43,990 nucleotides of DNA. It comes from Prevotella sp. Its GTDB lineage: Bacteria; Bacteroidota; Bacteroidia; Bacteroidales; Bacteroidaceae. The notes under the pieces are model-generated. The model worked only from the letters and a program-made list of their open reading frames with translations. It did no database searches and was not told the origin of the DNA. The DNA is taken from the NCBI GenBank assembly GCA_017965475.1, contig JAGCPV010000130.1, forward strand, positions 1 to 43,990. The letters are read 5' to 3'. This document shows positions 23,403 through 38,352 of this stretch, one piece after another. The position numbers and the translations under genes were made by a program. The stretch's first letter is position 1, and each line of letters opens with the position of its first letter.

Positions 23403-24209
23403 ATGGCGAGCATAGCAAGCTGGATATATAATAAGCCGCTCAGAGGCAATTACACTTTCACACACGATGAGGTGGCGCAGGCATTCCCTGACATGAGTGC
23501 CGGCAGCATTGCACGGGCACTGACCAGGGAGGTGAGCAAGAGACGGATTATGTCGCCCCTGCGCGGTTTCTATGTCATAGTGCCGGATGAATATGTACTG
23601 CGCGGGGCTGTGCCGCAGTCGTTTTACTTGGACGACATGATGCACCACCTGGGACGCAAATACTATGTGGCTCTGCTGAGTGCGGCAAGTTATCACGGAG
23701 CTTCGCATCAGGTCCCGCTACGGTTCAGCGTGATGATAGAACCTCCCGCCATGCGTGACAAGAAGGGAGAGAAATACCTTACGCATTATTTCTGCAAGAG
23801 CCATATTCCTGAGGCATACGTGGAGAGGCGGCAGACGCGGACAGGCTACATTAACGTGTCGTGCCCTGAACTGACGGCAGTGGATTTGCTGACGTATCAG
23901 GCTAAGACAGGCAGCGTTTCGCGGGCAGCCACTGTTCTGGCAGAACTGGCAGAGAAACTGGATTTTGGGCGCTTAAGCGCCGACTTTGCGAAGGAGGTGC
24001 CGGTAACCAGTCTGCAGCGTCTGGGCTATATTTTGGACGAGGTGCTGGAGGAAGAGGAAACGGCAGAGTCGTTGTACAGTCTATTGAAGAGTTCCGGTTT
24101 CGTGCTCCAGTATGTGCCTTTAAAGGCGGGAAAGAGTTGCGAGGGGTGCGAAAGGAACGCTAAGTGGAGAATTATTGTGAACGAAACCATCGAGATTGAC
24201 GAGTTATGA
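23403..24209 (+). CDS. abiEi: AbiEi-type antitoxin (type IV toxin-antitoxin)
   Basis: A 268-residue protein. Residues 1-60 form a winged-helix-like segment (YTFTHDEVAQAFPDMSAG, then ALTREVSKRRIMSPLRGFYVIVP) used for DNA binding and autoregulation; the rest resembles the AbiEi C-terminal antitoxin domain (YYVALLSAASYHGASHQ near 85-101; CPELTAVDLLTYQ). The start follows a full promoter. Its stop overlaps the toxin ATG (ATGA at 24206-24209). In the family the pair acts in abortive infection and plasmid/element maintenance. A CxxC near the end (SCEGCERN) is unusual for a cytoplasmic antitoxin and may be incidental. Confidence 0.88.
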   Translation: MASIASWIYNKPLRGNYTFTHDEVAQAFPDMSAGSIARALTREVSKRRIMSPLRGFYVIVPDEYVLRGAVPQSFYLDDMMHHLGRKYYVALLSAASYHGASHQVPLRFSVMIEPPAMRDKKGEKYLTHYFCKSHIPEAYVERRQTRTGYINVSCPELTAVDLLTYQAKTGSVSRAATVLAELAEKLDFGRLSADFAKEVPVTSLQRLGYILDEVLEEEETAESLYSLLKSSGFVLQYVPLKAGKSCEGCERNAKWRIIVNETIEIDEL

Positions 24210-25009
24210 TACCAGAGCGATATATTACGGAATGGAGCGAGCAGGCCCCATGGGTGGTGAATAAATTCATCGAACAGGACCTGATAGTCTGCCGTGCGTT
24301 AGTGTCTATTTATAGCGATGCATTTCTTGTGGAGCATCTGGCGTTCAGAGGCGGCACAGCATTAGGTAAGTTGTATCTGAAGCCACAGCCCAGATACTCG
24401 GAGGACATCGATTTGGTTCAAGTGAAGGCAGAACCCATCAAAGAGACCATAGACCATCTAAGGGATGCGCTGGCCTGGCTGGGCGAGCCGGTGGTGAAGC
24501 AGAAGAAGCACAACAATACGCTGGTGTTCAAGGTGCAGCCGACGGATATGGATGCGGGCGAGATTCACTTGAAGGTGGAAATTAACTGCAAGGAGCATTT
24601 CTCTGTATATCCGATGGTAAGAGTACCTTTTGCGGTGGAGAGTTCGTGGTTCAAAGGTGCTTGCGAGGTGCAGACCTATGAGTTGGCAGAACTGACCGGG
24701 ACGAAACTGAGGGCTGTGTATCAGCGGAGAAAAGGACGTGATTTGTTTGACCTGTGGAAGATTCTGTCAATGCACCCCGAGTTGGATAAAGGGAAAGTGA
24801 TGGAGAGCTATGAGCGGTATCTGGGCTTCACAGCGTCTCACTTGCCAACATACAAAGAGTTTTTGTTGAATATGGACGGAAAACTGCAGGACGAGGAGTT
24901 CCTGACGGATACAGAAATGATTCTTGGACCACAAGTGGAGTATGACCCTCAAGTGGCGTGGGAAAAGGTGAAAGCGGAGTTAGTGGAGAGACTTAATCCT
25001 GAAGTCTGA
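24206..25009 (+). CDS. abiEii: AbiEii nucleotidyltransferase toxin
   Basis: A 267-residue nucleotidyltransferase of the AbiEii/AbiGii family. FRGGTALGKLYL (48-58) is the GG[ST] motif and RYSEDIDLV (63-71) gives the metal-binding D67 and D69; ELTGTKLRAVYQRRKGRDLFD further on matches the conserved Lys and RKGRDxxD motifs. All catalytic positions look intact, so the toxin is probably active. AbiEii toxins act by nucleotide transfer, for related toxins onto tRNA; the target here is not known. Second gene of the AbiE operon. It is followed by a palindrome-rich intergenic stretch. Confidence 0.9.
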   Translation: MIPERYITEWSEQAPWVVNKFIEQDLIVCRALVSIYSDAFLVEHLAFRGGTALGKLYLKPQPRYSEDIDLVQVKAEPIKETIDHLRDALAWLGEPVVKQKKHNNTLVFKVQPTDMDAGEIHLKVEINCKEHFSVYPMVRVPFAVESSWFKGACEVQTYELAELTGTKLRAVYQRRKGRDLFDLWKILSMHPELDKGKVMESYERYLGFTASHLPTYKEFLLNMDGKLQDEEFLTDTEMILGPQVEYDPQVAWEKVKAELVERLNPEV

Positions 25010-25517: not shown

Positions 25518-26321
25518 TTATTTCACAATCACCTTCTTGCCGTTTTGGATGTAGAGGCCCTTCCGCGGTGTGCCCATGACCCTGCGGCCTTGGAGGTCGT
25601 AGATCGGTGTGTCGTCTATAGGCAGCTCTTTGATACTCTGAACGGAGGTAGCATCATCATATTGGTAGATGATATTCCCCTGCTGGGTACATTTCACGAG
25701 CTGTCTGAAAGCACCGCCATACAGATCTCCTCTCATGCCCACCAAGCCATGTTTCATGGATCCGATACCCTCTATCCAGACATCGTGATGATATTCTTCG
25801 AATAGGACCTCACCGTCAAAGAAATGTGAGAGGTGAATACACTTTCGGGGGGTCCTATCAAAAGAGTTTTCAAGTATCGTATCTGACACTGCCGTAACAA
25901 CATAGGGAAGGAGATCGTAATCAGAACCAAACTGAAACACATCACCCACCTGTAAAGAGAAATCCATCGTCACAAGGTTTTCTATAGAATTATCATTGTC
26001 TTTGTAAAAAAAGACTTTACCTGCGTTGTCCTCTCCTATGTATGTTCCACCGAAAGATCCACCGAATTCCCCTGATTCCCAATCACTCCAGTCATCCTCA
26101 TATTCCCACCTGTATCGTGAAAACAACAGTTTGTAGGAAATTCCCTCAATGGAGGTCTCGTCCATGAGTTTGTATTCGGTATAGCTTACCGTTTGTTCGG
26201 GACTAGAGAGAGTATTCTTAATAGTCCATATTTTCTCATTGTCAAGAAACGAATCATAATCCTGCCCAAACGATATGGCTGGCAGTAATGCTATCAAGAA
26301 AAACAAAAAGAATCTTCTCAT
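25518..26321 (-). CDS. Secreted protein with T9SS-like C-terminal tail
   Basis: A 267-residue product of unknown function. The signal peptide (MRRFFLFFLIALLPAISFGQ) is almost identical to that of the next gene upstream. The body has the GEDNAGKVFFY and VWIEGIGSMKHGL motifs seen in many uncharacterised secreted Bacteroidota proteins. The C-terminus is a YDLQGRRVMG ... KGLYIQNGKKVIVK tail, a Prevotella-type variant of the Por secretion tail that would send it through T9SS or anchor it (inference). Last gene of a three-gene operon, 16 nt behind its neighbour. The tail DNA (25519-25601) is one of three near-identical copies. Confidence 0.8.
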   Translation of the reverse strand: MRRFFLFFLIALLPAISFGQDYDSFLDNEKIWTIKNTLSSPEQTVSYTEYKLMDETSIEGISYKLLFSRYRWEYEDDWSDWESGEFGGSFGGTYIGEDNAGKVFFYKDNDNSIENLVTMDFSLQVGDVFQFGSDYDLLPYVVTAVSDTILENSFDRTPRKCIHLSHFFDGEVLFEEYHHDVWIEGIGSMKHGLVGMRGDLYGGAFRQLVKCTQQGNIIYQYDDATSVQSIKELPIDDTPIYDLQGRRVMGTPRKGLYIQNGKKVIVK

Positions 26322-26421
26322 ACCTACATATAAATAATTATTTCACAATCACCTTCTTGCCGTTTTGGATGTAGAGGCCCTTTGTCGGTGGGCCCATGAC
26401 CCTGCGGCCTTGGAGATCGTA
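26254..26421. repeat. 168-bp direct repeat, copy 1
   Basis: This block covers the signal-peptide end of the 25518-26321 gene, the 16-nt spacer and the tail end of the 26338-27768 gene. It matches 27701-27868 over the same length with only about six or seven differences. The tail part (83 bp) also occurs at 25519-25601. Confidence 0.88.
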
Positions 26422-27768
26422 GAGCGTATTGGCGATTGGTGTCTCTACCTCGCTGACGGACTTCATCCCGCTGATTGTCCCTTTCTCTGGCCAGACGTCA
26501 TAAAGCACCTCTCCGTTGCGCTCAAAATGAACGAGCATGGAACGATAGTGACGATCCTCTTCTGATTCTTCCTGGAAAAAGGTTCGGGCTTGATACGGTT
26601 CTACCGGGCCAAAGAGGCATTCACCATCATTCCAAGTTGTCACACCAATTCCCTGAATGATACGGACACCATTCACATCCGCATAACTCAATGAACTTGC
26701 ACCTCCGAAATCACCTTCCTTTATTTCATCAATAGTGCCAAAGTCAAATGTTCCTGGAGGGAAGATGGCTGTAGCATTGGAGCTTGTTATATCCTCGAAT
26801 TCCACTATTGTTCCGATGCTCCAGCCAAACTGATAGGCATTGCCCGGAAATAGCAGATATGAAGAACCATCGAACCCAATGATTGGCGGTATCGTTGCTA
26901 AAACGCATTTGTCATCTCCATTGAAACTCCCTTCCCATAGCAAAAGCGTGAGAGAGTCTGTCCACTCGGGGCCGTTGGTATATACCTTTTTAAATGTATT
27001 GAGATCATCATCCCATTCCTTTTCTACATATTCCCCTTGCACATAATACTCTATCGTCTCAAAGTTCGGCACCCATTCATCGCCGACCTTCGAATACCAG
27101 CTGTCATACTTCAGCGTGTCAAGCCTTATCTCCGTCCACTTCGTACCCTCGGGGAAATACTCTTGGGCTTTTGCCACAAACAGTTCGTTCTCACCTAACA
27201 TCTCATTACCTACCCAGCAGGAATGGAAGGTATTATAATTGCCGGGCAACTGAACAGGACTTACCAGACCGCAAGAACTTCCCAAGCCTTCTATCCAGAT
27301 ACCATTACTTGACCCGATAACCTGATCATTCTCCAGATACTCTTCCACAACCTCCATCCTGCGCAAGAGACGGTCGCCATACTTGATGGCATCAACCGCA
27401 ACAACCCTGACAATGGTTTTACCGTCCTTATCCGCCACTTCGCTCACAATCTCCCCGGCTTCCTTGCCGAAATCATAGATGAGTTGGGGCGTGTCTTTGG
27501 TCTGGAATACGCAATAGACCCTCTTCTCATCCTCACGCAGGGCATACTGATATGCACCAGTACTGACGTCGTATATCTTTTTGTAAGTGAGGTCGTTGAT
27601 GGTCGTATCACCTCTGACGACAAGGGAGAAATCATAATAATCTTCCGAAAAGGGCTTGTTATGAGTATATTTCCACGTCTTGCCCTCTTTCAGCAACGGC
27701 TCATAATCCTGCCCGAACGACATGGCTGGCAGTAATGCTATCAAGAAAAACAAAAAGAATCTTCTCAT
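26338..27768 (-). CDS. Secreted protein with EGxGS motif and T9SS-like tail
   Basis: A 476-residue product. Signal peptide MRRFFLFFLIALLPAMSFGQ. Residues of about 25-170 resemble the body of the neighbouring 267-residue protein (GKTWKYTHN, DTTINDLTYKKIY, GIWIEGLGSSCGL). The part from about 205 to 435 is an additional region (TKWTEIRLDTLKYDSWYSK; LLLWEGSFNGDD) with a second motif GVRIIQGIGV. It ends with the same YDLQGRRVMGPP ... NGKKVIVK tail. Function unknown; a two-unit version of its neighbour. Middle gene of the operon starting at 28495, with 16-nt gaps on both sides. Confidence 0.78.
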   Translation of the reverse strand: MRRFFLFFLIALLPAMSFGQDYEPLLKEGKTWKYTHNKPFSEDYYDFSLVVRGDTTINDLTYKKIYDVSTGAYQYALREDEKRVYCVFQTKDTPQLIYDFGKEAGEIVSEVADKDGKTIVRVVAVDAIKYGDRLLRRMEVVEEYLENDQVIGSSNGIWIEGLGSSCGLVSPVQLPGNYNTFHSCWVGNEMLGENELFVAKAQEYFPEGTKWTEIRLDTLKYDSWYSKVGDEWVPNFETIEYYVQGEYVEKEWDDDLNTFKKVYTNGPEWTDSLTLLLWEGSFNGDDKCVLATIPPIIGFDGSSYLLFPGNAYQFGWSIGTIVEFEDITSSNATAIFPPGTFDFGTIDEIKEGDFGGASSLSYADVNGVRIIQGIGVTTWNDGECLFGPVEPYQARTFFQEESEEDRHYRSMLVHFERNGEVLYDVWPEKGTISGMKSVSEVETPIANTLYDLQGRRVMGPPTKGLYIQNGKKVIVK

Positions 27769-27868
27769 ACCTACATATAAATTATTATTTCACAATCACC
27801 TTCTTACCGTTTTGGATGTAGAGGCCCTTTGTCGGTGGGCCCATGACCCTGCGACCTTGGAGGTCGTA
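27701..27868. repeat. 168-bp direct repeat, copy 2
   Basis: Covers the signal-peptide end of the 26338-27768 gene, a 16-nt spacer and the tail end of the 27785-28495 gene. It is near-identical to 26254-26421. The two copies put the same signal peptide and tail next to different protein bodies, which points to recent duplication or gene conversion. Confidence 0.88.
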
Positions 27869-28495
27869 AATCCCTGAGGATTCTGTGTCCGTTCCAGTGG
27901 TTACGCCCTGAATGTCCGCTTCGCCATAACTTGCCAAATCTGGTACTGATGCTGCAAAATCTCCACTTTCAAACATTTCATTAGCGCATTCCATTGGGCT
28001 CTTATCACTCTCTGGAGTAACATACAGGGCATACAATAAAGGTATTAGAGGACTATTCCCAACAATTCTGAGTTTATATTTCTCAGCATAGGAAGTCAGC
28101 AAGTCTATATCCTCATCTTTCTTAAGCCGAACATTCAGGTATGGAGTCGCAAAAACCTCCACATTGTCCTCTGTAAGATAACTTGAGGTTATTATCACAG
28201 ACTTTGCGTCTTCTTCCCAGAAATCCCGTGAGGATAGCTGCTCGAAATCTGACCGAAGAATGATAAAGATGTCGAAAAGATCCTCGTCTTTTATCATATC
28301 CTGGACCTGGACATTCGCACGAATCCTCTCGCTTACATCTTTATTGTCCTTAGATATACTGACACAGACCTTGCTTTCATTTAGGGTTAAAGGCATTTTT
28401 TCCCCCTTGTAGTAGTAATAATAGTCCTGTGCCATCGCATGCATTGAACATGAGATGAACAACAACATCAACAAATAATTTCTGCTCATAATCAT
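27785..28495 (-). CDS. Stand-alone subtilisin propeptide-like protein with T9SS-like tail
   Basis: A 236-residue product with signal peptide (LLMLLFISCSMHAMAQ). Residues 24-187 align without gaps to the N-terminal pro-region (25-188) of the S8 protease encoded just upstream at 28602-30308; by eye I count about 19 differences in about 160 positions. The catalytic domain is absent: after SVPDL a short linker leads straight to YDLQGRRVMGPP ... NGKKVIVK. It could be a secreted inhibitor or folding helper of the protease, or a protease gene truncated by recombination with a tail repeat. First gene of a three-gene operon with its own full promoter. Confidence 0.82.
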   Translation of the reverse strand: MIMSRNYLLMLLFISCSMHAMAQDYYYYYKGEKMPLTLNESKVCVSISKDNKDVSERIRANVQVQDMIKDEDLFDIFIILRSDFEQLSSRDFWEEDAKSVIITSSYLTEDNVEVFATPYLNVRLKKDEDIDLLTSYAEKYKLRIVGNSPLIPLLYALYVTPESDKSPMECANEMFESGDFAASVPDLASYGEADIQGVTTGTDTESSGIYDLQGRRVMGPPTKGLYIQNGKKVIVK

Positions 28496-28540
28496 TACTA
28501 TTTAATTTCTGATAGCCAATATTATACATTATAACAACTG

Positions 28541-28572
28541 CAAAAGTACGAAATAATATATCATTTAGCAAA
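28541..28572 (-). promoter_or_regulatory. Promoter of the three-gene secreted operon (TTTG-20-TACTTTTG)
   Basis: Minus-strand TTTG at 28572-28569 and TACTTTTG at 28548-28541 with a 20-nt spacer. It starts transcription about 40 nt before the gene at 28495 and separates it from the S8 protease gene. Confidence 0.75.
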
Positions 28573-28601
28573 TAGTTATTAGTATTTCTATATGTTTTCA
28601 A

Positions 28602-30308
28602 TTAGTTTCCTATCGTAAGCGTAGTGCCTAATGGCACTGTCGTAGAATTCTTAATTTCCACATATCCTGCTTGCAACGTGATATTACCTTGACCAAGAAC
28701 AACGTCTCCATATGCCTTTGTGTTGGTAACATTTCTTCCCACATAAATACTGCCTGCGGAAATTAATCTTGTTCCAGTGATGGTTTCGTTCTGAATATAT
28801 ACGGTGCTAGGGGTATTTATCACAGAACTGTATGCGTCAACAAGGCCGTATCCATATTCGTTATTCCATAATCCATCAGGTTTTGTAATATTGAAATTAA
28901 CTCCTGATAGTTTCTTTGCATTACTGTTAATAATACTGTTGACTTGGGTAACTGTCAATTCCGAGTTTCGCTGCAATATTAAAGCTGCAACTCCGGCAAC
29001 ATGGGGGCATGCTGCAGAAGTTCCGCTTCTATATCCTTTCTTGTTATTTGGAAGAGTGGAAAGGATGCTATCTCCAGGCGCAACAATGTCAAGTTTTACT
29101 CCATAATTTGAAAGAGTGGCTCTCATCCCTGTATTGTTAATTGAACCAACAGCAAGAATCGTGTCATTGCAGTTAGCAGGATAATTAATACTGTTCATGC
29201 TATTATTCCCTGCTGCAAAGACAACTACACAACCTTTACCCTGACGACCATATCTAAAAGCATCATATATGGCCGCATCTATTTCATCATAATGAATTGA
29301 AGAATGCCATGAATTCGAGATGATGTCAGCACCGTTTTGATAAGCCCAAATAATTCCGTCTGCTCTTTTTAATTGGCTGTTAGTCGTCATTTGCAGTGAA
29401 TTGCTTATTGAGACAATTGTTGCTTCAGGGGCAACTCCCGCAATTTGGATACCATTATCCTTAACGGCTGCCGCTATTCCTGCACAATGTGTACCATGGT
29501 CACCATAGACCTGACTCGGAGAAGAATTTGTTTCGGTATCATAACTCAAACTGCTAATGTTAGACATTAAATCTATATGATCCATATCCACGCCTGTATC
29601 TAATAATGCAATTTTTATTTTTTTTCCTGTGGAATAATTCCATGCTTCGGGCGCTGATATATCTATGCCTGGATGACTACTATTATGCAGTCCCCATTGC
29701 TGGCTATACATAGGGTCATTAGAACATATAAAGTCATCAGAACTCAGGTCTGGTACTGATGTTGCAAAATCCCCACTTTCAAATAATTCATTAGCGCATT
29801 CCATTGGGCTCTTGTCACCCTCTGGAGTAACATACAGGACATACAATAAAGGTATTAGAGAACTATTCCCAACAATCCTGAGTCTATATTTTTCAGCATA
29901 GGAAGCCAGCAAGTCTATATCCTCATCCTTCTTAAGCCGGACATTCAGGTATGGAGTCGCAAAAACCTCCACATTGTCTTCTGTAAGATAACTTGAGGTT
30001 ATTATCACAGACTTTGCGTCTTCATACCAAAAATCCTGTGAGACCAACTTCTCGAATTCTGACCGAGTAATAACAAAAATATCGAAAAGATCCTCGTCTT
30101 TTATCGTTTCCTGAACCTGAACATTCGCACGAATCCTCTCGCTTACATCCTTTTTGTCCTTAAATATACTGACACAGACCTTGCTTTCATTTAGGGTTAA
30201 AGGCATCTTTCCCCCCTTATAGTAATAATAATAGTCCGTTGGGGCTATCGCATGTACCGAACATGAGATGATAAACAATATCATCATAACATATTTCTTG
30301 CTTATCAT
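28602..30308 (-). CDS. Secreted subtilisin-family (S8) serine protease
   Basis: A 568-residue extracellular endopeptidase. Signal peptide about 1-22; pro-region about 25-190; catalytic domain about 195-495. The full catalytic set is present: D237 in LLDTGVD, H271 in GDHGTHCAG, N368 in AAGNN and S431 in GTSAACPHVAG. After the domain comes a short beta stretch (GDVVLGQGNITLQAGYVEI, about 534-552) of the 3-coathanger type often found at the C-terminus of secreted Bacteroidota enzymes; no YDLQGRR tail is present, unlike its neighbours. The pro-region is duplicated as a separate gene (27785-28495). A weak promoter box lies at 30353-30346. Confidence 0.93.
   Translation of the reverse strand: MISKKYVMMILFIISCSVHAIAPTDYYYYYKGGKMPLTLNESKVCVSIFKDKKDVSERIRANVQVQETIKDEDLFDIFVITRSEFEKLVSQDFWYEDAKSVIITSSYLTEDNVEVFATPYLNVRLKKDEDIDLLASYAEKYRLRIVGNSSLIPLLYVLYVTPEGDKSPMECANELFESGDFATSVPDLSSDDFICSNDPMYSQQWGLHNSSHPGIDISAPEAWNYSTGKKIKIALLDTGVDMDHIDLMSNISSLSYDTETNSSPSQVYGDHGTHCAGIAAAVKDNGIQIAGVAPEATIVSISNSLQMTTNSQLKRADGIIWAYQNGADIISNSWHSSIHYDEIDAAIYDAFRYGRQGKGCVVVFAAGNNSMNSINYPANCNDTILAVGSINNTGMRATLSNYGVKLDIVAPGDSILSTLPNNKKGYRSGTSAACPHVAGVAALILQRNSELTVTQVNSIINSNAKKLSGVNFNITKPDGLWNNEYGYGLVDAYSSVINTPSTVYIQNETITGTRLISAGSIYVGRNVTNTKAYGDVVLGQGNITLQAGYVEIKNSTTVPLGTTLTIGN
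29745..30236. repeat. Pro-region duplication (partner 27935-28426)
   Basis: About 490 bp encoding the pro-region of the S8 protease recurs at 27935-28426 with high nucleotide identity; long stretches are identical, for example around 28151-28210 and 29951-30010. It is a direct repeat that could recombine to delete the protease gene. Confidence 0.85.
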
Positions 30309-30365: not shown

Positions 30366-31574
30366 TTACTTCGATATTATCATCTTCTTCGTATCGATCT
30401 CCTGCCCATTGACAATCAGGGAGTAGAGGAACATGCCTTCGCCGAGTTCATAGCCTCCAAAGGAGACGCTCTCCATGCCCGATGAAACGGGCATTTCCCT
30501 GATGGTCTTGCCCGTCATGTCGAAGATGCAGATGGCGGCATCCCTGACATCATCGGCCAGAGAGAAGCGGATCGTGGTCTGCTCCTTGAACGGGTTCGGG
30601 GTGTTCTGGTAGAGTTTGTTCTTAGAGGCGAAGGAGCCTTCAACGCCTGTCTCTCCACGGGAGGCAGCTTTGGTCATTCCACCTGATGCCTGACCCTGCA
30701 ATTCCTCAATCTTCTCACTCAGTTCGTTGATGCTCTGTACCAGCAGGGGTATCATCTCCACGTAGTTGATGACCTTATTGCCGTCCTTGTTTACATAGAC
30801 CAGATCGGGGAAGGCTTCTTCCAACCGGTCTGCATCAAGGGCATAGTGGCTTTTCGTATAGAACTGCTCATCCATGATGTCGGCCTCAGGCTGCACGGCC
30901 TCTGCCGTCCTGGTAGAGTCCTCGTCTGGGTCGAGGATAGCGTCTGTGTCTTCGATTGGTGCCGGCCGCTCTTTCTGATAGGTCGTGACATGGAGCCCCG
31001 ACAAACCACTGGTTGCGGATAGCCCCTTTAAGGACTGGCCGCTGCCTGACGAGTTCGTCGAACTGGATGACTCGCCAAGAAGGGCACCCTGGATGGCCGA
31101 GCTCGTAACGATGCTGCCAATTACCTTGACATTACCACGGAAGAAACCGGCGTATTTGTCGCCCGTGCTCAGGCCTGCGCCGTTGTCGTTATAGATCGTG
31201 CCATAGACACCTGCACCGGTAGTGCTGTTGCTCTGGTTGATGCTGCCCACGATGCCGATGGCCTTCGTCCCTGTATCTGCATTGCCATACACGCCGATAC
31301 TGTTTGTAGTACCGTTGGCACTGCTCTTCAATCCGATACACTGGGAGGCATTGGAGGAACTGAGTTTACCTCCGTAGATTGCCGAACTGCTGTTGTTCCC
31401 GTCCGCAGAAAAAAGCAATCCGCTCCTCCCGCTGCTGGTACTGCTGCAAGACATCTGGTATGAGGTACTGCCTGAACCATTGATGGCAACCCTGCCATTG
31501 CTCATGACTTTGAACTGGGCACTTGCAGAAAAGGCAAGTACGCATAGACTGATTGATAATAATGTTCTTTTCAT
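30366..31574 (-). CDS. T9SS-secreted fibre-like protein with S74-type segment
   Basis: A 402-residue product. Signal peptide about 1-19 (LLSISLCVLAFSASAQ). Residues 20-175 are a Ser/Gly/Asn-rich repetitive region (SIGVYGNADTG, GIVGSINQSN, GAGVYGTIYND) of the type found in phage-tail-like and fibre proteins. Residues of about 235-290 (HYALDADRLEEAFPDLVY ... VEMIPLLVQSINELSEKI) resemble the Peptidase S74 intramolecular chaperone (AQEVEKxFPELV...YxxLxPLLxxAI). A canonical T9SS type A sorting domain ends it (LYQNTPNPFKEQTTIRFSL ... FDMTGKTI ... KKMIISK). Likely surface-exposed or secreted; trimer formation is inference. Confidence 0.82.
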   Translation of the reverse strand: MKRTLLSISLCVLAFSASAQFKVMSNGRVAINGSGSTSYQMSCSSTSSGRSGLLFSADGNNSSSAIYGGKLSSSNASQCIGLKSSANGTTNSIGVYGNADTGTKAIGIVGSINQSNSTTGAGVYGTIYNDNGAGLSTGDKYAGFFRGNVKVIGSIVTSSAIQGALLGESSSSTNSSGSGQSLKGLSATSGLSGLHVTTYQKERPAPIEDTDAILDPDEDSTRTAEAVQPEADIMDEQFYTKSHYALDADRLEEAFPDLVYVNKDGNKVINYVEMIPLLVQSINELSEKIEELQGQASGGMTKAASRGETGVEGSFASKNKLYQNTPNPFKEQTTIRFSLADDVRDAAICIFDMTGKTIREMPVSSGMESVSFGGYELGEGMFLYSLIVNGQEIDTKKMIISK

Positions 31575-31603: not shown

Positions 31604-31611
31604 CAAAGGTA
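31604..31611 (-). promoter_or_regulatory. Promoter of the fibre-like gene (TACCTTTG)
   Basis: Minus-strand TACCTTTG with CTTG at 31635-31632 (20-nt spacer), 29 nt before the start at 31574. Confidence 0.65.
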
Positions 31612-31654
31612 AGAAGAAATACTTATTATGGCAAGATTCCATAAAATCACGGTA

Positions 31655-32020
31655 TCACTCGTCCTCTACGGTGATCTCGTACTGGTCGATGATTCCGTCG
31701 GCAGTCGAGAGTGTCAGGATGTACGTGCCCACGCTGAGGAAGCTAAGGCAGTCAGTGTAGCTCTGCCCCGCACTCAGCGATACTGTCGTGTCCAGATAAG
31801 TCACACCATTGGACGCGATGCTAATCTCCAGCCCTGTGATGGCATAGTTCGGAGTAATAGCCAAGTCGCCAGTGTTGTAATCCAGATACAGGCTGATGAC
31901 ATTCTCAGATCTGGGCGGAGGGGTTCCTTGAGAAATTCTTTTGCTATTGTACTTGTCTGCAAACATCTCTGTTGGGGTCAGCAACAACCCAACTAACAAC
32001 ACTAATAATACTTTTTTCAT
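31655..32020 (-). CDS. Small secreted DUF3244-like protein
   Basis: A 121-residue product with signal peptide (KKVLLVLLVGLLLTPTEMFA). The mature part is a single beta-sandwich of DUF3244 type: ISLYLDYNTGDLAITPN, then GLEISIASNGVTYLDTTVSL and SVGTYILTLSTADG. DUF3244 proteins are small periplasmic or surface proteins of Bacteroidota with unknown function. It has its own promoter, is transcribed away from the TPR regulator gene, and is followed 43 nt later by a second promoter for the fibre-like gene. Confidence 0.75.
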   Translation of the reverse strand: MKKVLLVLLVGLLLTPTEMFADKYNSKRISQGTPPPRSENVISLYLDYNTGDLAITPNYAITGLEISIASNGVTYLDTTVSLSAGQSYTDCLSFLSVGTYILTLSTADGIIDQYEITVEDE

Positions 32021-32229: not shown

Positions 32230-32261
32230 TTTGTTTCTTCGATAAAAAATATCTATCTTTG
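32230..32261 (+). promoter_or_regulatory. Promoter of the TPR regulator (TTTG-20-TATCTTTG), leaderless
   Basis: TTTG at 32230-32233 and TATCTTTG at 32254-32261, spacer 20. The first candidate ATG is at 32266, so the transcript would begin at or next to the start codon. Confidence 0.75.
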
Positions 32262-32265
32262 CAGC

Positions 32266-33915
32266 ATGATGATAAAGAAAATATTACCTCCATTTTTCAT
32301 TCTATTCCTGTTGTTTGCCTGTAACGGCATTCAGGTGTCAGAGAAACTTGACCAAGTTGACTCTTTGATTGCTAAAGAGCAATATGATTCTGCCTGTGCC
32401 CTGATGAAAGATATGGCCAAAGCACTTATGACAAATGAGGAACAGGCGCATTATTATCTATTGGAGACACAATTAGGTTATCTCACGAACCAGCCTTTGG
32501 AGTCGGATTCACTTCTTGACTTAGCTATTACATACTATAATAAGGTGAGAAATCAACATAAATTGGCAGATGCCTATTATTATAAGTCATACAGGTCAAG
32601 AATTAATCAGGATTATCCTCGTGCTATACTATACTGCAAAGAGGCTGAACGTCACAGTAAACATGCTAACGATATTCGCCTTCAATATAAAATTGTAGAA
32701 AACTTGGCATATCTTAATGGGCGATGTGAGAATGATCTTCTTCAACTGCATTATGCAAAAAAAGCATTATCTACAGCAATGAAAGCAAGAGAAGGAAATT
32801 GGATAGCTTATTCCTATAATCTAATTAGTTTTTCTTTTGCAAATCTTGGTCAATGTGACAGTTCTTATTTTTATGTCCAGAAAACAATACCATATATTAA
32901 ATATGTATCTGACACAGACAAGGCAACGTTTCTAATGAACATTGGCGTATTATATAAAGAGAGTAACAAAGAAAAGGCCAAGGAATATTTTGAGAAAGCG
33001 TTAGCCTATGATGATTTGCCAGAAGTACTAGAACATTTGGCTGACATCTATTATTCTGAAGGTGACGAGGAAAAAGCATATAATTTATGGAAGAAAGCCT
33101 TGACAAAAGATAGTAAATACGAGAAGGATAATCTAATTTATAGTATTTTATCCTATGATCTTGAACGTGGTAAACTTGTTGAGGCAAGTAAGAACGTAGA
33201 TGAAGTGATTGCCATTAAGGATAGTATGATTTATGCCTTAAGGAATGATACTATCAAAGACCTACAACTACGCTTTGACCATGAAGTGGCTATGCATGAG
33301 GCAGACAAGAAACTGATCAGTACCCAAAGACTAATTCTGGGTCTCATCATTCTTATGGGCGTTATGGCTATTTACATCATCATCCGAAAGAAGAAACAAG
33401 AGACCAAGGAGAAAGAATACCAAATGCAGCTTTATACCTATACTACAGAGATAAACAAACTGAGGATCGTCAGAGACAATGCTCAGGCGCAGATCAAAGA
33501 CTTAGAAGGTCGTAAGGAAACAGACAGGCAGAAAATATGTAAACTGGAAGAAGATGTGAGGAATGCAGAAGATGCCATCGAGAAATACAACAAGGATATC
33601 AAGAAACTCCTTGATGATAAGGCGCCCAGGTTAAATCATGGCAGGTTGCTCTATGACCACATTATGAATGGAGGAAGCACTATCAAATGGGACAAAAACG
33701 ATGATTCTGATTTCGTCTATTATTATTCATCCATCAACTATGAGGCCTACCATAATATTATAAAGGTGAGAAGGTTCTCAAAACTAACAAATCACAACAA
33801 TGTTTATCTCATTCTAAAGGAGGCATTGGACAAAGACGATAAAGAGATTAAGCATATTATGGGACTCTCCCAAGAAGGTTTGCGCTCTATAAGAATGAGA
33901 ACAAAACCCCTATAA
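32266..33915 (+). CDS. TPR lipoprotein with membrane helix and cytoplasmic coiled coil, putative signalling regulator
   Basis: Start chosen at ATG 32266 (a second ATG follows directly at 32269) because the promoter box ends 4 nt upstream; the longer open frame upstream would precede the promoter. About 549 residues. N-terminal lipoprotein-like signal (FFILFLLFAC). Residues of about 25-330 form several TPR units (DQVDSLIAKEQYDSACALM; KEKAKEYFEKALAYDDLPEV; YSEGDEEKAYNLWKKALTKD). A TM helix at about 354-376 (LILGLIILMGVMAIYIII) leads to a cytoplasmic coiled coil (380-450) and a terminal part (LILKEALDKDDKEIKHIMGLSQEGLRSIRMR) resembling the DNA-contacting end of Bacteroidota TPR regulators. Sensing periplasmic signals to control the adjacent secreted genes is inference. 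Confidence 0.75.
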   Translation: MMIKKILPPFFILFLLFACNGIQVSEKLDQVDSLIAKEQYDSACALMKDMAKALMTNEEQAHYYLLETQLGYLTNQPLESDSLLDLAITYYNKVRNQHKLADAYYYKSYRSRINQDYPRAILYCKEAERHSKHANDIRLQYKIVENLAYLNGRCENDLLQLHYAKKALSTAMKAREGNWIAYSYNLISFSFANLGQCDSSYFYVQKTIPYIKYVSDTDKATFLMNIGVLYKESNKEKAKEYFEKALAYDDLPEVLEHLADIYYSEGDEEKAYNLWKKALTKDSKYEKDNLIYSILSYDLERGKLVEASKNVDEVIAIKDSMIYALRNDTIKDLQLRFDHEVAMHEADKKLISTQRLILGLIILMGVMAIYIIIRKKKQETKEKEYQMQLYTYTTEINKLRIVRDNAQAQIKDLEGRKETDRQKICKLEEDVRNAEDAIEKYNKDIKKLLDDKAPRLNHGRLLYDHIMNGGSTIKWDKNDDSDFVYYYSSINYEAYHNIIKVRRFSKLTNHNNVYLILKEALDKDDKEIKHIMGLSQEGLRSIRMRTKPL

Positions 33916-34071: not shown

Positions 34072-36402
34072 ATGGCAAGGGCATTTTTATCTCATAGCAG
34101 TAGTGACAAATCTTTGGTAAGGAAAATTGCTAATTTATTAGGTAACCAAAGATGCGTATTGGACGAAAACTCATTTGAACCTGGAGCTAAAACTTTAGAC
34201 GAAATTTTCAGGGAATTAGATGAATCGGATGTGTTTGTTTTGTTCATCTCCGATAAAGCACTTAATTCCAATTGGGTACAAACGGAGATAAATATGGCTT
34301 ATAAGGCGATGAGTGAAGACAAGCTTGACAGGATTCTTCCCATTATAATAGACGAGAAAGTGGATCACACAGATCATCGCATACCTAAATGGCTTTCGAA
34401 TGACTATAATCTGCGTTATATTAAAAACGAAGTCATCATATATCATAAGATAAGGGACGCACTTTATGATGTGAGTTACAAAAAAAGCGAACATAATCAG
34501 GCGTTGGAACGTATCTTTGTCGGACGCAATGAAGAGATGGCAAGATTTGAGAGAGATGTGAATAACCTAGAGGGATGGACTCCTACCTATATCATTGCAT
34601 ATAACTTCTATCAAGGAATTGGTAGAAGTACATTCCTGAAAAATGCTTTATTAAAAGCGCAGTTTATCTCGAAATTGTCTTCTCATAAGCCTATAACACT
34701 CGACAGGCGTGAGAGCATTGAGAGTTTTATATATAAGCTGAATGCCATCAGTGAAGATGAGGTGGTTTATAAGAGTGACCTGTCAAAGAAAACTATGGAC
34801 GAAAAAGTCGCGATGGCTGTTACACAGGTAAAAACATTCATGCAGAACAAGGAAATCGTCTTCATTGAAGACAACGGAGGTATCATATTGCCAAATAAGG
34901 AAATGGCTCCTTGGTTCAAACAGGTAGCTCATAATAAAGCATTTGATAATAATCTTGTATTTTGCATCATATCAAAATTCCGCCCCGATGAGCGACAATT
35001 GGAACGTGAAAAACGTTCTTTGGTTTACATGATTCCAGAACTTAAAAAGGAAGAATACAAGAGTCTTTTCATCAAACTATTGAAGATTTATGGCCACGAC
35101 GATATTTCAACAGATGATAAGAAATTCTTCTTGGAACACCTTAAAGGTATTCCCGCCCAAATCATTTATGCCGTCAAGATGATAGATATCAACCTTTTTG
35201 AAGCAAAAAAGGGAATCAAGGAGATTGACGAATTTACAGACAAATACAGCAAAATTCTTTTAGAGAAGCTGCGTGAGATGCCAAAAGCATATCAGATAGC
35301 CGTAATGCTGTCACAAAACGAAGTGTTCAGTATGACTTTGATCAAAAAAATCTTTGGTGATAATCAAGAAACAGTGGATGCCATGCAGATACTCATCGAC
35401 TTGTCTGTGGTGAGTTTCCTTTTTGGTGGCTATGAATATCTTAGCCTCAACTCTGCCCTAGCAGACTATATTCGTCGTTCACGTATCCAGATTGACAATA
35501 ATTACGGTAGGAAATTAACTGAGGAGATTAAGAAACTATTAAAGAAGGATTTGGGTAATGTACTTATAAATGACTATTCAGCATTTATGCTTACACTTCA
35601 AAATATGCTAAAGGAAGGGAAAAAAATACCATCCAAATATTTCATGCCTTCGTTACTGCTTAAGAATGTTATTGTTCTTTATGATCAAGGGAAATGTAAC
35701 CTGGTCATAGATATATGTGAAAGGCTCTTGAGCGATACGAACTATGACGAACAGATTATGTGGGAAACAAGATATTGGCAAACGGCTGCAATGGCAAAAT
35801 GTAAAGATCGGAGAGTTTTGGACAATCTCAGATTCTTCAAATATGACAGTGTTGCACAGAATTTCCTGAAAGGTTTCTACTATCGTCATATTGGTGAAAA
35901 GAAAAAAGCGCTCGATTGTTTCTATAGGGTATTAGAAAAGGATAAGACCCATGCAAAATCCAAACGGGAAATAGTGAACATCCTGCTTTCACAAGGAAAG
36001 TATTCTGAAGCACTTGATATGGCCAAAGATAATTATAGTATGAACAAAACGAATATATACCATATTCATTCATACTTCATCTGTCTCATACGTAGAAAAG
36101 AGTATTTAGTACCCCAAGACATTAAGGTGCTTGATAGTCTTCTGGAAAACATGAAAGACAATGTTGCCACAAAGGCCGAGGACATGGCCAGATGTATGGA
36201 AGGGGAATATGCCTACTATGTAAAGAATGACATTAATCGGGCTCGAGACATCTTAAAGAATGCAATTGAAATAAATGAGAACAAATCTTATCCCAAGAAA
36301 TCCTTATTTGAGATTTATCGTACAGAAAAGCGTTTGACAGATTTCTACAAATTAGGTATTGACCTAAATAATTCTGTTTATGAAATAGAAGATTTTGAAT
36401 AA
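34072..36402 (+). CDS. TIR-STAND ATPase-TPR protein, candidate anti-phage NLR-like sensor
   Basis: A 776-residue protein in three parts. TIR domain about 1-135 (ARAFLSHSSSDKSLVRKIA; FVLFISDKALNSNWVQTEI) with the putative NADase Glu E72. STAND-like ATPase about 148-400: FVGRNEEMARFE linker, P-loop region FYQGIGRST (179-187), Walker B VFIEDN (263-268), IISKFRP (299-305), then a GLPLA-like LKGIPAQIIYAV. C-terminal helical TPR-like repeats about 560-776 (FYYRHIGEKKKALDCFYRVLEKD). In known TIR-NLR defence proteins the repeats sense phage and the TIR domain depletes NAD+. The P-loop has Arg at the Lys position. AT-rich relative to the core genes; no partner gene on the same strand. Confidence 0.88.
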   Translation: MARAFLSHSSSDKSLVRKIANLLGNQRCVLDENSFEPGAKTLDEIFRELDESDVFVLFISDKALNSNWVQTEINMAYKAMSEDKLDRILPIIIDEKVDHTDHRIPKWLSNDYNLRYIKNEVIIYHKIRDALYDVSYKKSEHNQALERIFVGRNEEMARFERDVNNLEGWTPTYIIAYNFYQGIGRSTFLKNALLKAQFISKLSSHKPITLDRRESIESFIYKLNAISEDEVVYKSDLSKKTMDEKVAMAVTQVKTFMQNKEIVFIEDNGGIILPNKEMAPWFKQVAHNKAFDNNLVFCIISKFRPDERQLEREKRSLVYMIPELKKEEYKSLFIKLLKIYGHDDISTDDKKFFLEHLKGIPAQIIYAVKMIDINLFEAKKGIKEIDEFTDKYSKILLEKLREMPKAYQIAVMLSQNEVFSMTLIKKIFGDNQETVDAMQILIDLSVVSFLFGGYEYLSLNSALADYIRRSRIQIDNNYGRKLTEEIKKLLKKDLGNVLINDYSAFMLTLQNMLKEGKKIPSKYFMPSLLLKNVIVLYDQGKCNLVIDICERLLSDTNYDEQIMWETRYWQTAAMAKCKDRRVLDNLRFFKYDSVAQNFLKGFYYRHIGEKKKALDCFYRVLEKDKTHAKSKREIVNILLSQGKYSEALDMAKDNYSMNKTNIYHIHSYFICLIRRKEYLVPQDIKVLDSLLENMKDNVATKAEDMARCMEGEYAYYVKNDINRARDILKNAIEINENKSYPKKSLFEIYRTEKRLTDFYKLGIDLNNSVYEIEDFE

Positions 36403-36532: not shown

Positions 36533-37231
36533 TTAAATATTTACTAGTCGTTCTACCCACTCATTAAAATGAGGGCACTTGGCACGGAGTTCGTCTATGC
36601 CGATCTCCTTTGTCACGGATTTACCTGTAGTAGGCTTGTTGTAGTTATAATGAATTTTCTTTTCCCCCTCAATAGCCTTAATAATGCGCTTACTTGGAGC
36701 AGTAGTCGGGCCATTGTCTATGAGTTCAGGATTCCCTACTTTTTGAAGGTCTTTAGTTAGCTGCTCGCAACGCTTCTCACAACCAGGATAGAGTTTGGAC
36801 AAGTGGTTGATACCGCAAAACAATAATGCCTCGAACTCATGCAGTTGGATATATGGGATAAAGTGTTTCTCACCTACCGCTTCTGAAAAAGCTTTTTCCA
36901 AAGCCTTTATGCGAACGTATGGATCATAAATAGTTGAAGCTTCCATGAATCCAGGGAAATCATCTGGCAAAGCGTATAAATCGAACATCGTTGTGAATAT
37001 ATGACGCTCGTAATCGTTATCTTGCTTTGTCATTCGTAGCAAGTTTATATCCGTCTCAACATGTTTGTATGTGGACATTCCTCCGCGGGCATTCCTTTTT
37101 TTGTTTGTAGTGATAAGAATACTTTTTACTCCTGTCACTCCTTTATTTTGAAGATAAGGTCGAAGGACTTCCTCAACGAACCCTTGTTCTGTTTGCCCCT
37201 CACAGAGAACATGAATAATCTTTGCTTTCAT
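36533..37231 (-). CDS. DUF4276 family protein, partner of an AAA ATPase
   Basis: A 232-residue protein. The DUF4276 pattern is visible: VLCEGQTEQGFVEEVLRPYL at 8-27 and the central PYIQLHEFEALLF near 125-137. The family is related to Toprim/RloB-type putative nucleases; conserved acidic residues (E12, E15, and E130/E132 of HEFEALLF) are candidate metal ligands. The gene overlaps the upstream ATPase gene by 4 nt (37228-37231), so the two are coupled. By analogy with RloA/RloB, AriA/AriB (PARIS) and OLD-type pairs, it is the likely effector of a two-gene defence module; this assignment is inference. Confidence 0.82.
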   Translation of the reverse strand: MKAKIIHVLCEGQTEQGFVEEVLRPYLQNKGVTGVKSILITTNKKRNARGGMSTYKHVETDINLLRMTKQDNDYERHIFTTMFDLYALPDDFPGFMEASTIYDPYVRIKALEKAFSEAVGEKHFIPYIQLHEFEALLFCGINHLSKLYPGCEKRCEQLTKDLQKVGNPELIDNGPTTAPSKRIIKAIEGEKKIHYNYNKPTTGKSVTKEIGIDELRAKCPHFNEWVERLVNI

Positions 37232-38352
37232 ACAGGTCGCCCTCCAATGATGTTTTTATCCCACAATTCGCTGACTGTGTAATGCTCAAGCCAGAGTTTA
37301 TAGTCACTTTCTTTCAGATGAGTTACAGATGTGCTTTGAGTCTTCTCATCCATCTCAACCACAGAGATATTCTCAACATCAAATAAGTCAACTAAATCCT
37401 TGCTTTGCGTAGCAATAATCACTTGCGCATGAATGGATGCATCTTTTATCATTTCTGCCAATTGAGCAATAGCATAAGGGTGAAGTCCTAATTCAGGTTC
37501 ATCCAATATAATAACATCTGGCATAGTCTTTACAGGTTGCAATAATAGAGTTGCCAAGGCTATAAATCTGATAGATCCATCTGAGAATTGATATGCATTG
37601 AGCCGATAATCTGTTGCAGAATTGTCAATCCATCGAAGTGAAATGGTATTATTGTTTGGTTCAAGATAAAAATCTTGGAACTGAGGTATTACATCACGCA
37701 CATAATCCACAATGCGTTTATATGAATCTATATAATTGTCGCGAAGAAATAGCAAGAAAGAAGGGAGATTATTACCATGAGACTGAAGATAATTTGCAGT
37801 ATCTACAGGGCAAGCTTGTCGCAAAGGACCTTCGTTAGAAGAATCATGAAATTGATATACTTTACAATAGGCCAACATCCAATAGATAGATTTTGCAACA
37901 GAATCTTTGCTATCTGCAAGAGCAGACTCTTTAAAGTTTGATTCCAATATTACCTCATATGGCTTATTCTCGGTTTTACGATGCCATTTTATGCTTTCTT
38001 CTGTAATGATAAGTCTGTCAGGAGCTGCATTCGACAATGAAAAATGATATGAGTAAGCGGACTTAGTGTCAGTAAATTCTAACGTTCCTGACATTATTGG
38101 CGTTTTTTTGGGACCATAATGAAGCAAGGAATTTGCAGTTCCAGACTTTTCCACGTAGACGCCAAAAGATTTACTCATCATATAACCTAACATCCTAAAG
38201 AAACTAATAATGTTACTTTTACCAGCTCCATTAGCACCCAATAGGATATTCACATTACCAAGATTCAAAGTAACAGGATTATTATGGGCTATTGATTTGT
38301 AGCCACAAATAGTAACCTTATCTAATTTTTTACGAAGATAATTCTTTCCCAT
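37228..38352 (-). CDS. AAA family ATPase (RecF/OLD-like) of a two-gene defence module
   Basis: A 374-residue ABC-type ATPase of the AAA_21 kind. Walker A GANGAGKS at 39-46; signature-like FSDGSIRFIALATLL near 255-270; Walker B VIILDEPELGLHP near 276-288; then a conserved ATQSKDLVDLF (switch His replaced by Gln). It lacks a Toprim domain of its own; the overlapping DUF4276 gene may supply it. Start at ATG 38352 with a full promoter upstream. The pair is transcribed toward the TIR-STAND gene and both are AT-rich, consistent with an acquired island. Confidence 0.87.
   Translation of the reverse strand: MGKNYLRKKLDKVTICGYKSIAHNNPVTLNLGNVNILLGANGAGKSNIISFFRMLGYMMSKSFGVYVEKSGTANSLLHYGPKKTPIMSGTLEFTDTKSAYSYHFSLSNAAPDRLIITEESIKWHRKTENKPYEVILESNFKESALADSKDSVAKSIYWMLAYCKVYQFHDSSNEGPLRQACPVDTANYLQSHGNNLPSFLLFLRDNYIDSYKRIVDYVRDVIPQFQDFYLEPNNNTISLRWIDNSATDYRLNAYQFSDGSIRFIALATLLLQPVKTMPDVIILDEPELGLHPYAIAQLAEMIKDASIHAQVIIATQSKDLVDLFDVENISVVEMDEKTQSTSVTHLKESDYKLWLEHYTVSELWDKNIIGGRPV

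Follow-up and report, generated by a model that had tools for sequence, protein, structure and literature searches.

Why should a Prevotella genome hold, directly beside the gene of a subtilisin-like (S8) protease, a second gene that encodes the pro-domain of that protease but no catalytic domain? The question arises in a 43,990-nucleotide stretch of Prevotella sp. (GenBank assembly GCA_017965475.1, contig JAGCPV010000130.1; hereafter the window), where an earlier note, made from the sequence alone, had described a 236-residue secreted protein as a free-standing duplicate of the neighbouring propeptide. We give an even chance to the reading that this protein is a trans-acting subtilase pro-domain, that is, an inhibitor or chaperone exported by the type IX secretion system (T9SS). 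The computed basis of this reading consists of homology, an intact frame, constraint on the pro-domain pair, recurrence in relatives, several positions directly after an S8 gene, and a relative whose protease has lost its covalent pro-domain while the separate gene is kept (G493; genomes and loci are given by our own G and L handles). The features concerned are as follows.

27785..28495, minus strand: stand-alone pro-domain protein, 236 aa, no Pfam match, no catalytic domain
28430..28495, minus strand: signal-peptide-like N-terminus of the stand-alone protein, 22 aa (by eye)
27935..28426, minus strand: pro-domain of the stand-alone protein, 164 aa
27788..27874, minus strand: T9SS-like short C-terminal tail of the stand-alone protein, without hidden Markov model support
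28541..28572, minus strand: Bacteroidota-type promoter of the stand-alone gene, a TTTG-N20-TAnnTTTG match
28602..30308, minus strand: S8 protease, 568 aa, with its own pro-domain and all of the D, H, N and S motifs
29745..30236, minus strand: covalent pro-domain of the S8 protease
28845..29627, minus strand: S8 catalytic domain

Identity and constraint of the two pro-domains

The pro-domains at 27935-28426 and 29745-30236 align without a gap, as had been claimed, with 144 of 163 residues identical (88%), 19 different, and a nucleotide identity of 91.0%. A search of the window's own genome with the 236-aa protein gave 84% over residues 2-188 (E 4.1e-101), far beyond chance. The frame of the stand-alone gene is open over the whole of 27785-28495. 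The dN/dS of the pair, a check proposed by the earlier note, is 0.245 by NG86 (bootstrap 0.12-0.53), well under 1, and the pair is under constraint. In simulations with a simple binomial model, a value this low arose in 0.2-1.1% of runs when one copy was fully neutral; both copies at 0.25 fit the data (63% of simulations), and a half-relaxed copy (0.5 against 0.1) also fits (39%). Neither copy looks more degraded than the other, since 13 and 12 of the residues of the respective copies at the 19 differing sites occur elsewhere in the family.

The synonymous distance within the pair (0.25), compared with 0.73-0.86 to the pro-domain of the G415 protease, suggests that the duplication is fairly recent or, alternatively, that an older pair was homogenised as a whole. 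A mosaic left by gene conversion was rejected: the nucleotide differences are clustered (16 in 60 nt, p 0.001), whereas synonymous differences taken alone show an even spread (p 0.99); the cluster therefore reflects amino-acid change at about positions 43-71 and not a conversion tract. Uniform conversion across the whole domain is compatible with this test of spread.

Pro-domain genes directly after S8 proteases

Close S8 proteases, with a match reaching the C-terminal end, were found at seven loci in two overlapping samples (398 genus and 369 family genomes); S8 matches in G357, G620, G466, G508 and G616 end short of the C-terminus and were not counted. Where contigs allow, the upstream genes are similar (a regulator, a DUF3244-like gene and a T9SS-tail protein; mostly by eye). 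A pro-domain gene lacking a catalytic domain lies directly downstream of the S8 gene in four of the seven loci, namely those of the window, G412, G493 and G1080, the downstream genes of G412 and G1080 being incomplete at contig ends. In G1080 (L156 5430-6580), tandem catalytic-free pro-domains directly follow the S8 gene; the first copy is apparently frameshifted, and the gene is cut by the contig end. The downstream gene encodes a VPS10-like tail protein in G415 (Pfam) and, by eye, at one G1082 locus, and the other G1082 locus has tail proteins with weak EGKxW-type matches (EGKxW is our own label for a domain). The stand-alone gene of G415 sits elsewhere in its genome, away from the S8 gene. 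At more distant S8 loci, VPS10-like-looking or other genes lie downstream.

The G493 locus shows a split arrangement. Its S8 protease, which retains the Asp, His, Asn and Ser motifs, passes from the signal peptide almost at once to the catalytic domain and has no pro-domain of its own (about 70 residues before the Asp motif, compared with 209-224 in the window, G412 and G415), and the stand-alone domain starts 52 bp downstream of it. The catalytic domain differs from that of the window by dN 0.268 and dS 1.13; G415, with dN 0.189 and dS 0.75, has a similar ratio. We met this split in a single genome, where the contig measures about 100 kb.

A possible route to such genes is seen in G189, where the partner fused to the pro-domain shares 53% identity with the product of the gene next downstream of S8 in G415. 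Such a fusion is the expected product of a deletion of the catalytic part, suggesting how tailed stand-alone proteins may have originated.

Architecture, promoter and predicted export

As described previously, the 236-aa protein has a signal-peptide-like start (by eye) and lacks a catalytic domain; the 164-residue domain is followed by a linker and a short tail. No Pfam domain, the Inhibitor I9 model included, matched it at E <= 0.1, and the S8 protein matched Peptidase_S8 at E 1.9e-55. Among the matches listed at E <= 1 for 22 family members, the I9 model was likewise absent. An I9-like fold of the domain is suggested by a structure model of moderate confidence; the model of the full-length S8 protein (pLDDT 31) was unusable for interface mapping. 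The NCBIfam model TscT weakly matched both window pro-domains at residues ~69-141 (E 1.3e-4 and 2.4e-4, the latter with 21.5 bits against a cut-off of 100); these matches, far below the cut-off, were set aside.

The C-terminal end had been called secretion-tail-like. In favour of this, the tail (IYDLQGRRV..KGLYIQNGKK) has nine other matching places in the own genome and is found again in both downstream operon genes; against it, none of the Pfam and NCBIfam models identifies the tail as a T9SS domain (no PF18962 or TIGR04183 match in the 236-aa protein). The search for T9SS machinery in the own genome covered the sortase PorU, which is present (947 bits together with its neighbour in frame, cut-off 420).

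The Bacteroidota-type promoter pattern TTTG-N20-TAnnTTTG has four matches in the window against 0.11 expected. The match before the stand-alone gene is a good consensus match, in keeping with a promoter of its own; contrary to the conserved promoter of the earlier note, it does not duplicate that of the protease gene, as the upstream sequences of the two pro-domain genes have no similarity visible by eye. Directly before the S8 gene this pattern has no match, and a slightly looser one matches at 31604-31634, before the gene upstream of S8. The stand-alone gene and the next two genes follow each other at gaps of 16 bp, indicating that, by position, the stand-alone and two EGKxW genes form one three-gene operon, separate from S8, with the stand-alone gene at its head as had been proposed. 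The surrounding genes of the locus are as follows.

26338..27768, minus strand: operon gene 2, EGKxW domain and tail
25518..26321, minus strand: operon gene 3, EGKxW-like domain; tail and signal DNA nearly as in gene 2
30366..31574, minus strand: T9SS-tail protein gene preceding S8; its G493 counterpart has a Peptidase_S74 match
31655..32020, minus strand: small secreted DUF3244-like protein (E 0.091, below the cut-off)
32260..33915, plus strand: tetratricopeptide repeat (TPR) regulator-like gene heading the locus and facing away from the minus-strand genes

The minus-strand order is therefore that of the DUF3244-like protein, the T9SS-tail protein, S8, the 236-aa protein and two more secreted proteins. 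The G412 counterpart of the DUF3244-like gene is likewise below the cut-off (E 2.3e-4), and similar TPR regulator-like genes stand at the locus head in relatives (judged by eye). In the two EGKxW genes (25518-27768) the DNA of the signal peptide at one end and of the tail at the other is nearly the same, but by eye the middles look different, in a manner suggestive of cassette swapping. Genes assigned to defence surround the S8 locus: an AbiEi/AbiEii type IV toxin-antitoxin pair (23403-25009, plus strand; PADLOC E 7.8e-87 and 3.5e-107), a TIR-NLR-like protein with TPR repeats (34072-36402, plus strand; PADLOC TIR-NLR E 2.2e-122) and a candidate HEC-01A/HEC-01B pair (36533-38352, minus strand).

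Distribution and descent of the domain

Relatives were collected from three samples, with the own genome counted in each. At the protein level, 18 of 301 family genomes gave matches at E <= 0.001; with profiles, 23 of 398 genus genomes did so at E <= 1e-15 and 8 of 344 order genomes at 1e-12. Stand-alone proteins with a tail, for which the earlier note had suggested looking, are present in nine other sampled genomes (G187, G233, G526, G543, G554, G651, G652, G415 and G493), and parts of another lie at two contig ends in G412. The domain also occurs on S8 proteases, in fusions with leucine-rich repeats (LRR) or EGKxW, VPS10-like or tandem domains, and in lipoproteins; one contig scan with a single sequence query gave two lipoprotein loci only. 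Free and fused rows that are not cut by contig ends retain the domain through its last strand. Outside the family, G984 (L142 1447-2310) encodes a divergent S8-type stand-alone protein with a Por_Secre_tail-like end (E 2.5e-4, below the cut-off), not adjacent to an S8 gene. No relatives were confirmed in viral contigs. At L109 (186-2033), a tail protein carries the pro-domain and, behind it, what by eye are more propeptide-like repeats.

With a broad profile at E <= 0.01, the stand-alone protein itself is the single match in seven of 11 genomes (G233, G187, G526, G543, G554, G651 and G652), three of which are 99% complete, with G233 in one contig; G493 also has a single match. These seven genomes do have S8 proteases, and those read in G233 and G187 carry other pro-regions; no close S8 protease was listed at E <= 1e-80 for G526, G543, G554, G651, G652 or G233. 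The EGKxW neighbour in the window matches eight of nine LRR/EGKxW fusions, at E values from 1e-26 to 0.004, as well as genes adjacent to the stand-alone genes of G554 (4e-11), G652 (4e-9) and, weakly, G233 (0.007), and in other genomes the EGKxW domain is itself fused to the pro-domain. In G651 (L078 1-5319), a regulator and a DUF3244-like gene are followed by a C10 protease, which has an I69 pro-region and occupies the place held by S8 in other loci; next come one small gene and the stand-alone pro-domain of S8 type.

A tree of 44 domains places 26 in one clade (100/99), comprising 10 stand-alone domains, 11 fusions, two lipoproteins and three domains on S8 proteases. The remaining 18 rows are all S8 pro-domains, and the root was set on one of these, suggesting that the domain most likely left the proteases; common descent with S8-attached pro-domains is seen in one tree that holds 21 of them. 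Loci L012 and L040 (near or the same as L011) and L020, L051, L055 and L063 (cut by contig ends) were left out of the tree, as were the order-level loci L139-L146 and those of G1080 and G1082, which were found later. Three further S8 proteases with this domain type, also found later, fall outside the 26. A single origin of the stand-alone domains was rejected (p-AU 0.0006). The window pair are sisters (100/99). The description as a duplicated propeptide of the neighbour proved too narrow for a mobile module that occurs in fusions and as the single copy in several genomes.

Function of the stand-alone pro-domain

If the stand-alone protein acts in trans, the T9SS would export it and it would bind the catalytic domain of a subtilase in the manner of the covalent pro-domain, blocking the enzyme and/or aiding its folding; in the window it would be a second, separately promoted copy beside a protease that still holds its own. 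Export, binding, and inhibition or chaperoning by the stand-alone protein are predictions. The reading is preferred because it covers both the position after S8 and the G493 split, and in this respect the trans role envisaged by the earlier note has gained ground through the four post-S8 genes and a protease lacking its pro-domain. Several observations weigh against a simple cognate inhibitor. In seven of the 11 genomes with a stand-alone protein, the search brought up no second copy of the domain, and half of the clade members are parts of other secreted proteins or of lipoproteins. The domain behaves as a mobile module, with only three of 26 clade members on S8, and the window gene shares its operon, by position, with EGKxW genes rather than with S8. 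The fusions and the partner-less copies show further uses of the domain.

These same observations would suit a released pro-domain that became a general surface module, binding or structural, of secreted Prevotella LRR/EGKxW proteins without a protease partner, the window copy being a split-off subunit and its S8 neighbourhood a matter of history. The make-up of the clade and the matches of the EGKxW neighbour to fusions and to genes beside other stand-alone genes point this way. We nevertheless consider it unlikely, though still a serious alternative, as it leaves the post-S8 position in four of seven loci and the G493 split unexpected; moreover, the uncut free and fused rows keep the domain through the last strand, and the three later-found S8 proteases are not among the 26. 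A quite improbable alternative is that the protein faces outward as an inhibitor of host, diet or competitor subtilases, a shield at the cell surface for which S8 was merely the evolutionary source. The tail-like C-termini on the stand-alone proteins and most fusions would suit it, as would the occurrence of stand-alone proteins where no second copy exists, the known stand-alone I9-type inhibitors (PMC6993865) and the description of mesophilic propeptides as promiscuous in PMC10580911; the same paper shows a high selectivity of the pernisine propeptide for the enzyme it belongs to, and no target is known. Least credible, in our view very improbable, is a non-functional relic, expressed or not, in which a truncated protease duplicate recombined onto the tail repeat. 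Such joins do seem recurrent, the G189 fusion looking like a deletion of the catalytic part, and the stand-alone domains are polyphyletic, the G1080 gene looks frameshifted and a half-relaxed copy is compatible with the substitutions. The intact frame, the promoter match, the low dN/dS with symmetric differences between the copies, and the recurrence in nine other genomes argue against it.

Set side by side, the seven loci could tentatively be arranged as stages, although we doubt this more than we believe it: covalent pro-domain only, with none beside it (G415, G1082); covalent and separate (the window, G412, G1080); and separate only, with a protease that would depend on the separate gene (G493). 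One locus would then display the staged birth of an external protease chaperone in Prevotella and its kin, with the window as the redundant middle stage, and the freed domain would in parallel have become a protease-binding surface module. Arguments on how a built-in folding helper turns into a protein of its own commonly start from completed cases; here what look like the earlier, intermediate and later states of a single locus, flanked by similar genes, make the step directly testable. If this holds, Bacteroidota would possess a self-protection or regulation device built from a protease's own pro-domain, and BspA-type surface proteins a new inhibitor-like module.

Comparison with known systems

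No description of a stand-alone subtilase pro-domain in Prevotella or Bacteroidota was found in the literature searched, which was covered in part, nor one of the T9SS-like tail, the fusions or the staged locus; the available part of PMC11285876 holds nothing on short T9SS tails. The kind of protein is already known, from ORF2, SUB1-ProM and Spi.

The stand-alone I9-type inhibitors POIA1, yeast protease B inhibitor and Arabidopsis SPI-1, together with TgMIC5 and SUB1-ProM, resemble the window protein as small proteins with a propeptide fold, and the SUB1-ProM gene also lies beside subtilase genes (PMC6993865). All five are eukaryotic, whereas the window protein is bacterial; POIA1, protease B inhibitor and SPI-1 are described as without significant sequence similarity (PMC6993865), whereas the window protein is 88% identical to its neighbour's pro-domain. 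It further differs from the I9-type inhibitors in its T9SS-like tail, its fused relatives and the lack of a Pfam I9 match. In the SpeB-Spi and Bacteroides C10 pairs, the inhibitor gene likewise adjoins the protease gene, and Spi has been called a propeptide analogue (PMC2873492). The G651 locus comes near to these in pairing a C10 protease with a nearby S8-type stand-alone pro-domain. The protease clan and inhibitor family are different, however, and the Bacteroides inhibitors are described as staphostatin-like, not as propeptides. The Tannerella KLIKK proteases and potempins likewise combine a Bacteroidota protease gene with an adjacent gene for a specific inhibitor, but potempins are small lipoproteins encoded before the protease, with no sign in that source of being pro-domains (PMC7296668).

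Homology to ORF2 was not detected in sequence: the domain profile, searched against PDB sequences, gave two unrelated chains only at E <= 10, both of ABC substrate-binding proteins (E 0.11-0.14), which were taken as chance matches. By structure, one chain of the ASP-ORF2 complex (ORF2 by its length) ranked third, in what was a weak comparison. In Aeromonas sobria, ASP is a propeptide-deficient serine protease; ORF2, its external chaperone, is required for ASP maturation, is also inhibitory (IC50 84.3 nM), and is encoded by a separate gene directly after the protease gene (PMC5638518). Four of the seven close S8 loci share this gene order, and the G493 protease, alone among them, also shares the missing pro-domain. 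The window differs from the Aeromonas pair in that its protease retains its own pro-domain; two tandem units and an export-type tail are further differences.
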